31,407 bases of DNA from a virus. Shown here piece after piece: positions 19,302-22,800 of this stretch. Position 1 is the first letter of the stretch, and each line of letters begins with the position of its first letter. The notes under the pieces are model-generated. The model was not told the DNA's origin and ran no database searches. It saw only the letters and a list, made by a program, of their open reading frames with translations. The stretch spans positions 1-31,407 of IMG/VR virus record IMGVR_UViG_3300006310_000076; one strand, given 5' to 3'. The position numbers were made by a program, and so were the translations under genes.

Positions 19302-19721
19302 TTACTTTATCTTTATTGTTTTAGGCTTTTTACTTTCAGGTAAATCTTCGTAGAGTTTGATTTTAAGCATTCCATCTTTAAAATCAGCGTCATCTACTTT
19401 GACATACTCTGATAACGTAAACTTCCTTAAAACACTTCGAGATGCAATCCCTTGATGAATCAAGTTCTCTACATCTTTCTTTTCTTTTTTAGCTTCAATG
19501 GTTAATACACCATCTTGTAGTTCGCATTTCAAGTCCTCCTTAGAGAACCCTGCTAATGCCATTTCGACAAGATACTTGCCATCCTCTAACTTTCTTATGT
19601 TATATGGAGGGAAGTTTGAAGTGTTAAGTCGAGAGACCTCATTTAAAGAATCAAACATTCTATCGAAACCGATAGAGAAATTCTTAAAGGGGTCAAAGTT
19701 TATTAAATCGTATGTTGTCAT
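19302..19721 (-). CDS. Small heat-shock protein (Hsp20/IbpA family)
   Basis: A 139-aa ATP-independent chaperone that binds unfolding proteins. The alpha-crystallin domain is complete: PPYNIRKLEDGKYLVEMALA, GFSKEDLKCELQDGVLTIEA and the conserved DADFKDGMLKIKL (A-x-x-x-G-x-L). The C-terminal I-x-I anchor is present (KTIKIK). The aromatic N-terminus (DLINFDPFKNFSIGFDRMFD) matches IbpA-type proteins. It has its own sigma70-type promoter and a structured 5' leader. Hsp20 genes are known from cyanophages and some pelagiphages. It may help virion assembly or host protein folding late in infection. Confidence 0.95.
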   Translation of the reverse strand: MTTYDLINFDPFKNFSIGFDRMFDSLNEVSRLNTSNFPPYNIRKLEDGKYLVEMALAGFSKEDLKCELQDGVLTIEAKKEKKDVENLIHQGIASRSVLRKFTLSEYVKVDDADFKDGMLKIKLYEDLPESKKPKTIKIK

Positions 19722-19725
19722 GTTA

Positions 19726-19743
19726 ATCCTTTCGTTAAGCGAT
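19726..19743 (-). promoter_or_regulatory. ROSE-like RNA thermometer candidate over the hsp20 ribosome site
   Basis: On the minus strand, AUCGCUU (19743-19737), loop AACG, and AAAGGAU (19732-19726) fold into a 7-position hairpin that masks the Shine-Dalgarno. The pairing includes a G-G opposition (19740/19729) and a C-A mismatch. UCGCU fits the U(U/C)GCU anti-SD motif of ROSE elements, which control small heat-shock genes in alphaproteobacteria. The motif is short and untested here. Confidence 0.45.
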
Positions 19744-19750
19744 TTAAGTT

Positions 19751-19776
19751 GAGTAACTCCACAATGGACATTACTC
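19751..19776 (-). other. Hairpin in the hsp20 5' leader
   Basis: On the minus strand, GAGTAA pairs with TTACTC and, inside it, TCCA pairs with TGGA around a TTG loop, with a small internal bulge. It would lie about 5-30 bases after the predicted start of transcription and upstream of the ribosome-site hairpin. Multi-hairpin leaders of this sort are typical of ROSE RNAs. Confidence 0.5.
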
Positions 19777-19787
19777 TTTCATACTAT

Positions 19788-19816
19788 AGTATAGTAAGAA
19801 ATTCGTTAGTTGTCAA
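19788..19816 (-). promoter_or_regulatory. Sigma70-type promoter for hsp20 with overlapping palindrome
   Basis: On the minus strand: perfect TTGACA (19811-19816), 17 bases, TATACT (19788-19793). Start near 19781. A perfect 12-bp palindrome ATACTATAGTAT (19781-19792) overlaps the -10 and start, as an operator would. The -35 is made from the final Val-Asp codons of the upstream ejection-protein gene. Confidence 0.7.
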
Positions 19817-22800
19817 CAAATAAACCTGCCATCAATGCACTTAATTTTTTTGCTCGGTCAGGTGTTTGATTATGCCATTCACTTTTTAGCATTTCTTTAG
19901 ATGCAAGGTCATAACGACCATTATTTATATGTTCAAGAGTTTGAGTAAAACCAGCTAATCCTTCTCCTGTTTCTTTATTACTACCCATTTGAAAAGCCAT
20001 TTCAACCATTAGGTTGTAAGCTTTAGGGTGAACTTTACTTTTATCAATTAAGTCATCTACAGCAAGGGCTGCTTTCTCAACATCTTGTTCAAATAATTCT
20101 TTAACTTCTTTATCAGTATAAACATCTTTAGTTTTTTTATCTAATCTATGTCCTATACCAACAGTCCAAAAATCTTCTTTAACTTTTGTACCATCATCTT
20201 TTATATATTCTAATTGATAAGGTATATTTCTATATCCTTCTTCTTCTTTAATGCTTTCTTTAGTTTCATCATCTACATTAATTGTATGTTTTTCTTCTAT
20301 ATGAGGAGTGGATGCTAAATCTTTTTTAATTTCATTTACTTCTGCATTCACACCATAGACTTCATCACCTGCAACATATTTTTTTCTATGAACAATTCCT
20401 CCATGCATAAAAGATATTTTAGGTACATTTGTTTTTGATTTTATATTTCCAGATTTAGGAAACCAGAATTTTTTAACCCAGTTTCTCCATTCAGGAAAGA
20501 ATAATTGTTTCTCTAATCTTTCATAAGCTTGTTTTGGTTTTCCAGTAATCAGGTCAGTTGCTGCTAATCCAAATTCTGCTAAAACATTATAAGCAGGAGC
20601 AAAGACAAAGAAGGGAGAACTTTTAGAACCTGGTCCAACAAATCTATTAAAAACTAAATCACTTAACCAGCCAGGCATCCCTGATAATTGCCATGCTTTT
20701 GTAGCAAGTTCAGGTTTATTATATTCCATATCAGTAACTACACTTCCATGTTTCATTATTTCTCTTAATTGTTGAATACCAGAATAAACAGGAATTGCAG
20801 CCAATGTTTTTATTAAAGTTCTTGCATCTCCATTTTCTATTCTTCTTAAAATTCTATTAGTTTGTGAAGATTTTGCTTGTGCCCATGATAAGAATTGTCC
20901 TAAAGCTCTAATCCATGGTTCTTTACTTTGTGTAAATAATAATCTATTTGAAACTTGAGGAATTAATGCATCTCTATTAGAGCCAATAAGTCCAGCTTGA
21001 TTTAAAAATTTCTTTGCTGCTTCATCTTTAATAGCTTTATTAAATGTAGTATATTTTCCAATTGTTAAAGCTTGATTACTTCTAATTCCATATTTATCTA
21101 AATCTCTTATAAGAACTTTCGCAGCTCTACTATTAATTCCTTGAGGTCCATTTACTATTTTATAAAATTGTCTTGATAAATTAAATATATCAGCAGCTCC
21201 AGTATTATATGCAAATCTTCTAGCATAGCCTGTTAACCATTCTAAACCTAATCCTTTAAAAGCTAACGTATTATAAAAACTGGTTCTTTTAAAATCTTTC
21301 CATTGAACACCCCATTTACCCATCCAAGATTGACTTAATACTAATTCTTTTTCTAAACCAGCAGCAGTTCTAGTTAATGACCTAGACATTTCATTATGCA
21401 TATCATAACCTAAATTTCTAGCTAGTCCTTTTTCCCAATTAGCTTTAAATAAATTAGTTCTACCTAGTCCTTTTAAAGCAGCAGTCCAACTTATAGAATT
21501 TTGGAAAGGTTGAATTATATCTCCTAAAGATGATATAGTAACTCTACCTAACATACCTAAGTTACTCATCATAGTAAGAAGACCAACTGATGTTGAAAAA
21601 TTTTTACCTTGACTAATACCTAATTGGTATCTACCAAAGTAAGCATCAATAGAATCTAATACTAATCCAGCTTCATGTGCGGCTGCATCATTTCTAGTTG
21701 AGTTAATCCCAAGTTTATTATTTCTTAAAATTAAATTATCATATTTTGTTCTTATCTGTTCAAGTAAAGGTTTTAATAATTGTCCACCCTTACCGAATAC
21801 TCTAGCAAAGGCAATTGATTTAGTAGAATCTTGTATAATTTTAGGTAGAATAAGTGATAAATCATTTATTAAAAATCCTTCTCGTTCTAATATTTTTTCT
21901 ACATCATCAAATTTACCTTGTAAACTTCTATGTTTAAATATATGGTCCGATATAGGAGTATGAATTAAATCATGTTCTTTAGTTAAAGGGTCTACAATTC
22001 TTGCTCCCCCTTTAGGTTTTGGACTACCTCTTACAATTTTATTCCAAACATTAGTATTAATTACACTAGAATGACCAGGACCTGATGATTTTTCTAAATA
22101 TGCTCTAGCTGCATCTCTTGCTTTTTCTGTAGTAAGTTTATAATTATCTTTAAATATTTTTGTAAATACTTTTTCAGCATGAGGCATATTAGAATTAATT
22201 ATTTCCCAATTTAATACTCTAGGAAAATAATTATCTAATTCTCTAGGAGAAAAGAAACCTGCTTTATTATATAATACTTTAAATTCATCTAGAAAACCTT
22301 TTATATCATCTGCTAATTTTAAAACATCTTTACTTGCAATCTTAGCTAATTCTTTATTACCTCTAACAATTGAAACAGCTTGTATTTGTTGTTCTTTAGA
22401 AGAATTTTTAATTAGATTATTAGCTTTTCTAAGAAAATAATTATCCATAGATTCAGCTTGAGCAATAGCAGATTTTTCTGCTAAAGGGTCGTCAACTTGT
22501 CTGAATAATAATCTACCAATTTTTTGAGTCGTACCACCAAATGAATTTAATTTAGTAGCAGTAGTTGCGGATGTTAATTCTCTAAGTTTTTGAAATGTAA
22601 ATCTAACTGCATGGTTTTCAATCTGTTTATTAAATAATTGTTTTTGACCTAATGGAATTCTAATACTATTTTGAATAGATTTTTGTCCAAAGCCTAACGC
22701 CATACCAGCAAAAGCCCATGTTAAGATGTCATCTTCAACATCATAACCCATCATTCCAGCACCAACATTAGCTCCTAGACCAGTTGCTCCACCTATTAAA

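Follow-up and report, generated by a model that had tools for sequence, protein, structure and literature searches.

Does the short leader that precedes the hsp20 gene of a virus infecting SAR11-type bacteria work as an RNA thermometer, letting a phage make its small heat-shock protein according to temperature? The window, by which we mean the whole stretch of 31,407 nt analysed here (IMG/VR record IMGVR_UViG_3300006310_000076), comes from a relative of the Pelagibacter phages HTVC103P and HTVC104P, its closest relatives among named phages, which resemble it at the DNA level across the structural region.

The hsp20 gene and its promoter

A phage hsp20 gene had been predicted on this DNA and was confirmed on the minus strand at 19302-19721, where it encodes a small heat-shock protein of 139 aa (PF00011, E 5.7e-16; phrog_432, Hsp20, E 1.2e-39) with 80.6% amino acid identity to the Hsp20 of HTVC103P/104P. 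Phage Hsp20 proteins are already well known (PMC3827213, PMC5028025). In T4-like cyanophages hsp20 is a core gene, pelagiphages have it too, and the role of the phage protein is debated between heat protection and capsid maturation (PMC7674155). Within the coding sequence a terminator scan flagged a 7-bp hairpin, TCTATCG-gttt-CGATAGA (window 19659-19676); a tRNA-like repeat located 3' of hsp20 was rejected as a tRNA, the tRNA search there having found none.

Like the gene, the promoter and leader elements described below are read on the minus strand. The promoter TTGACA-N17-TATACT put forward in the original prediction was found at 19816-19788, followed by about 60 nt and then by the ATG. It agrees with sigma-70 at 11 of 12 positions, a level reached by three sequences in the AT-rich window where 3.4 are expected, so that a single match is not rare. 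The promoter is nevertheless credible, because all 44 relatives compared have retained TTGACA, TATA(A/C)T and the 17 nt between them: the -35 hexamer (19811-19816), which overlaps the final codons of the preceding 1452-aa gene, is invariant, and the -10 hexamer (19788-19793 in the window) reads TATAAT in 33 relatives and TATACT in 11. From the promoter geometry, transcription would start about 7 nt past the -10, at 19779-19783. Since hsp20 thus has a promoter of its own, the further proposal that late gene expression is linked to temperature was an overreach, and just the chaperone's translation is implicated, not late genes generally.

The promoter also marks a sharp module boundary. Several loci (window 19806-19880, L001-L010) share hsp20 and its leader at 98-100% identity, and the 60 nt directly upstream of the -35 are just 25-42% identical among them. 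The sequences suggest that the 1452-aa virion lysozyme protein has had its C-terminus exchanged beside a mobile hsp20 cassette.

The two leader hairpins

The hsp20 leader, about 60 nt long, holds two hairpins. Hairpin I, GAGUAAU-[G]-UCCA-uug-UGGA-GUUACUC (19751-19776), has a conserved bulged G at 19769, and its fold matches the Rfam ROSE_3 consensus fold. In 44 close relatives five of its pairs show compensatory changes and 94% of cells are paired, against 26-50% in slid controls; folding and compensatory pairs therefore uphold the leader hairpin of the original prediction.

Hairpin II, AAUC-[G]-CUU-aacga-AAG-GAUU (19725-19744), masks the Shine-Dalgarno (SD) sequence, as judged from folding and from covariation in a wider set of phages. 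Its 5' strand carries the ROSE motif U(U/C)GCU as defined in PMC3669281, here UCGCU at 19738-19742, opposite the SD sequence AAAGGA at 19727-19732, identified by sequence; this arrangement is invariant in the 44 relatives. The masking stem had been anticipated with UCGCU opposite AAAGGA, and this part stands, whereas the G-G opposition described with it is an ungapped drawing of the same stem, which pairs better when drawn with G19740 bulged between AAUC/GAUU and CUU/AAG. Imperfect pairing of the SD around a conserved unpaired G, by which ROSE elements are recognised, is therefore present here, together with the broader ROSE features: the motif opposite the SD, an upstream hairpin, and a 5' UTR placed directly before a small heat-shock gene.

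In the 44 close relatives hairpin II is 100% paired and almost invariant, six of the seven stem pairs never varying. Covariation for the SD stem was consequently drawn from other phages, namely 80 IMG/VR loci collected through Hsp20 protein similarity and phage isolates, and most of their leaders contain the same two hairpins. The third pair of the outer SD stem varies among 110 distinct hsp20 leaders, 88 having C-G, 14 A-U and 8 U-G; none leaves it unpaired, compared with 78% pairing in shuffles. When 15 phages were inspected singly, 13 kept the bulged-G stem, with variants on the SD side matched by the partner strand, and each of these stems had a p of 0-0.014 against shuffled upstream sequence; in the Vibrio phages PWH3a-P1 and VpB-34 the bulged-G SD stem was absent. 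The SD side GAUU of the window faces AAUC; GAG faces CUC in HTVC115P and P-SSM4, GAC faces GUC in S-RSM4 and S-CAM4, GUGG faces CCAC in S-TIM54, and GAGGUUUGU faces AUAAACUUU in Mosig. The leaders of related phage hsp20 genes, to which the original prediction had looked for compensatory changes, thus re-pair the SD stem. An alignment of 70 elements has 95% of its cells paired, slid controls giving 40-62%.

A covariance model, R1, was built from 40 elements of other phages found by DNA pattern, none of them of the window's kind. Its best match in the window is the leader itself (19776-19718, minus strand, 23.2 bits, E 3e-4), the runner-up scoring 12.8 bits. Over 190 kb of loci collected by Hsp20 similarity, 38 of 39 R1 matches fell at hsp20 leaders, and the hsp20 leader was matched in 38 of the 40 sources picked by Hsp20 protein similarity. 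R1 also recognises the P. aeruginosa-type ibpA leader with 25.1 bits, where Rfam ROSE_3 gives 69.2 bits. This leader, a full ROSE_3 element, stands before an ibpA-like gene in 'Pseudomonas phage Y7' (L254), an unverified record in which the gene is probably host DNA.

Searches with the Rfam models went the other way. With E allowed up to 10, Rfam ROSE (RF00435) matched neither the window nor any of 24 records, and ROSE_3 (RF02523, cut-off 43 bits) did not match the window; that no Rfam ROSE model matches the window was an outcome named beforehand as speaking against the original prediction. However, ROSE_3 aligns end-to-end, below its cut-off, with the hsp20 leaders of related phages, namely that of locus L166 (39.6 bits, E 2.7e-7 against all Rfam) and that of Methylophilales phage Melnitz-3 (34.1 bits, E 3.5e-4), so that the negative result for the window reflects divergence. 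The L166 match had at one point been placed before dnaK, which is wrong, as it precedes the hsp20 that follows dnaK. R1 aligns both hairpins in the window and in the P. aeruginosa leader, which is the two-hairpin architecture of ROSE_3. Judged by sequence, the window's leader shares a homologous architecture with the short Pseudomonas ROSE and falls outside formal Rfam membership.

Temperature and other signals

Our reading, to which we give a probability of about 0.8, is that the leader of pelagiphage hsp20 is an RNA thermometer of the ROSE type, with two hairpins and an SD stem that would melt on warming. The sigma-70-like promoter would yield a transcript with the leader of about 60 nt, in which hairpin I would serve as a stable folding scaffold. 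In the cold the UCGCU strand of hairpin II would pair imperfectly, with one bulged G, to AAAGGA and exclude 30S ribosomes, and in the warm this weak stem would melt and Hsp20 would be translated. For the ROSE-like thermometer originally proposed before this gene, conservation, compensatory changes and the link through the model to P. aeruginosa ibpA hold, while temperature as the signal, regulation at translation and action during infection are all three what we infer from them. The likely function, from these comparisons, would be control of translation by heat, not tied to the heat-shock sigma factor of the host. The phage has probably kept the post-transcriptional sensor and removed transcription from host sigma-32, since the viral copies are without the heat-shock promoter of SAR11-like hsp20 genes.

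Folding calculations across temperature, suggested with the original prediction, agree with this reading in part. The local SD stem of seven pairs goes from about -4.9 kcal/mol at 10 C through -3.0 at 25 C to -1.5 at 37 C, and for the leader alone the predicted mean openness of the SD is 0.03 at 5 C and increases to 0.21 at 42 C. For 101 non-redundant leaders the predicted median goes from 0.08 to 0.26, compared with 0.42 already at 5 C in controls with shuffled upstream sequence. The SD of the leader alone is thus predicted to open with warming, but once 24 bases of the coding start are added the predicted swing is weak, openness then being 0.52-0.72 over 5-42 C in nearest-neighbour models, which leave out the non-canonical pairs of ROSE stems. 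The weakness comes from a competing helix, UUAAAUCG/CGAUUUAA, that pairs the anti-SD strand with codons 4-6 and leaves the SD mostly open. We considered this helix as a conserved ON state and rejected it: in the 101 leaders SD openness is 0.42 with real coding starts and 0.25 with shuffled ones, and the effect vanishes when each N-terminal cluster is counted once (n 48, mean rank 0.53-0.56), which identifies it as phylogenetic redundancy.

It is unlikely, although worth weighing, that the leader is a ROSE-homologous hairpin controlling translation in response to a phage signal other than ambient heat; conceivable candidates are a repressor that binds RNA, a RegA-like protein of the phage, the availability of ribosomes, or simply a constant low level of Hsp20 translation timed by the promoter. 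The temperature range of marine hosts is narrow, the predicted opening of the SD is modest once the coding start is included, hsp20 adjoins a gene for a RegA-type translational repressor in several cyanophages, and Hsp20 has been proposed to act in capsid maturation and not in heat protection (PMC7674155), all of which would fit such a signal. However, what has been conserved is a weak bulged-G pairing with a covarying SD partner, with no fixed single-stranded site for a protein, and the element is found also before SAR11-like and SAR116 hsp20 genes, bacterial rpoH and the proven Pseudomonas ibpA thermometer, as well as before chaperone genes of other families.

We hold it very improbable that a repressor bound to DNA exerts the main control, with the leader hairpins secondary to it. 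The original prediction had an operator-like 12-bp palindrome over the start, and this palindrome (19781-19792) does lie in an AT-rich inverted repeat around the -10 (19777-19801, minus strand), a near-perfect 25-bp dyad that spans both the -10 and the start; many relatives have some inverted repeat in this place. Nevertheless, the window has no excess of perfect 12-bp palindromes over chance (11 where 16 are expected), one 25-bp dyad with a single mismatch or none is seen where 0.4 are expected, pairing of the dyad across relatives gave no covariation above shuffles, and one clade is without the dyad. Moreover T4-like phages retain the RNA element under a different promoter of the TATAAATA type. 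The operator was accordingly not borne out.

That an AT-rich leader offers fortuitous hairpins, with UCGCU beside an ordinary SD by chance or base composition, has a negligible probability: the short SD stem, weak at 37 C, and the missing Rfam match in the window would suit it, but it is contradicted by the independent R1 match, by compensatory changes that exceed shuffled and slid controls, and by the concentration of motif sites upstream of hsp20 described below.

Distribution of the element and known thermometers

The exact motif of the window followed by ATG occurs at 89 sites in IMG/VR, of which 86 are upstream of hsp20. The cyanophage-type motif precedes hsp20 at 101 of 120 sites in a profile search, plus two truncated hsp20 starts recognised by eye, and the T4-like type at 64 of 81; since the sites were picked by motif, these counts indicate association with the gene and not conservation of the motif. 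In 884 kb of viral loci selected by pattern, R1 matches precede hsp20 in 88 cases, dnaK in 10, groES in one and other genes in three, and the DnaK and GroES family assignments of the genes so preceded were confirmed. In L166, dnaK and hsp20 each have their own element, that of dnaK being of the R1 type. In a viral groES-groEL locus (L162:5050-7350) the SD of the element leads into an ORF of 14 codons, some 130 nt upstream of groES, and a second ROSE-type element stands before hsp20, which follows groEL. ROSE-type elements were also observed before 81-aa phage proteins that apparently form two unrelated families (L289:5053; L330, minus strand; L165:7196-7438), and the small protein of L165 had no NCBIfam match.

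Among alphaproteobacterial genomes, R1 matched the hsp20 leaders of seven small, low-GC (0.29-0.32) genomes with a SAR11 appearance, and also three rpoH genes and one dnaK; the hsp20 leaders of SAR116 were matched too. The matches in L244, L245 and L252 lie directly before sigma-32 (rpoH) genes, and on this sequence evidence some alphaproteobacteria may control rpoH through a ROSE-type thermometer. A bacterial dnaK on a contig of GC 0.51 (L250:1558-3060) has a two-hairpin ROSE-like leader, so that use of the element with dnaK is not confined to viruses.

Promoters differ by group. T4-like phages use the TATAAATA late type and the window's kind a sigma-70-like one, while in four SAR11-like leaders we read by eye CTTGAAA...CCCATAT-like (sigma-32-like) promoters, which the viral copies are without. 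As the RNA element stays constant while promoters change, it is economical to suppose that regulation acts on the RNA.

The ROSE-type element is widespread in aquatic phages. A search of open-access papers turned up no account of ROSE elements from phages or with dnaK or groES, and a ROSE-type switch before chaperone genes of very diverse phages seems not to have been described before; the present elements include viral ones, and some stand in front of dnaK, of one groES and of rpoH in bacteria. Whether aquatic phages run a heat-shock regulon at the RNA level, in which hsp20, dnaK and a groES share one ROSE-type thermometer freed from sigma-32 by promoter swap, we regard as an even bet. If so, the thermometer would have been obtained with or like host genes, and the chaperone supply for virus production would track water temperature directly, which bears on how infection of SAR11 and cyanobacteria responds to ocean warming. 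A conserved thermometer before hsp20 would mean that phages themselves treat this gene as temperature-controlled, and it makes the question of the Hsp20 role, heat protection or capsid maturation, directly testable.

The element would join the few known phage RNA thermometers, for which lambda cIII is the precedent (PMC4166951). As in lambda cIII, access to the ribosome-binding site on a phage mRNA is predicted to follow temperature; however, cIII, with an unrelated structure and gene, has two alternative conformations and closes at high temperature, whereas the SD of the window should open. With ROSE1 (RF00435, the type of Bradyrhizobium hspA and E. coli ibpA) the window shares a U(U/C)GCU motif that blocks the SD in the hairpin proximal to the 3' end, but ROSE1 has three to four hairpins and the window two. 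Closer still in form is the short ROSE_3 element of Pseudomonas ibpA (RF02523), shown experimentally to be a thermometer (PMC3669281): it has two hairpins in a 5' UTR of about 60 nt with a small heat-shock gene downstream, its hairpin II pairs U(U/C)GCU with a bulged G to the SD, and its hairpin I, AUGCC...GGGU, contains a bulged G as does hairpin I of the window. In contrast to it, the window's leader is AU-rich, has a weaker SD stem (AAUC/GAUU) and lies below Rfam ROSE_3 detection; the Pseudomonas element is under sigma-32, while that of the window is viral, under a sigma-70-like promoter, and a candidate thermometer by sequence. The leaders of SAR11-like and SAR116 hsp20 genes have the same two-hairpin element immediately before hsp20, although several of them, unlike the window, are headed by the sigma-32-like CTTGAAA...CCCATAT-like promoters.
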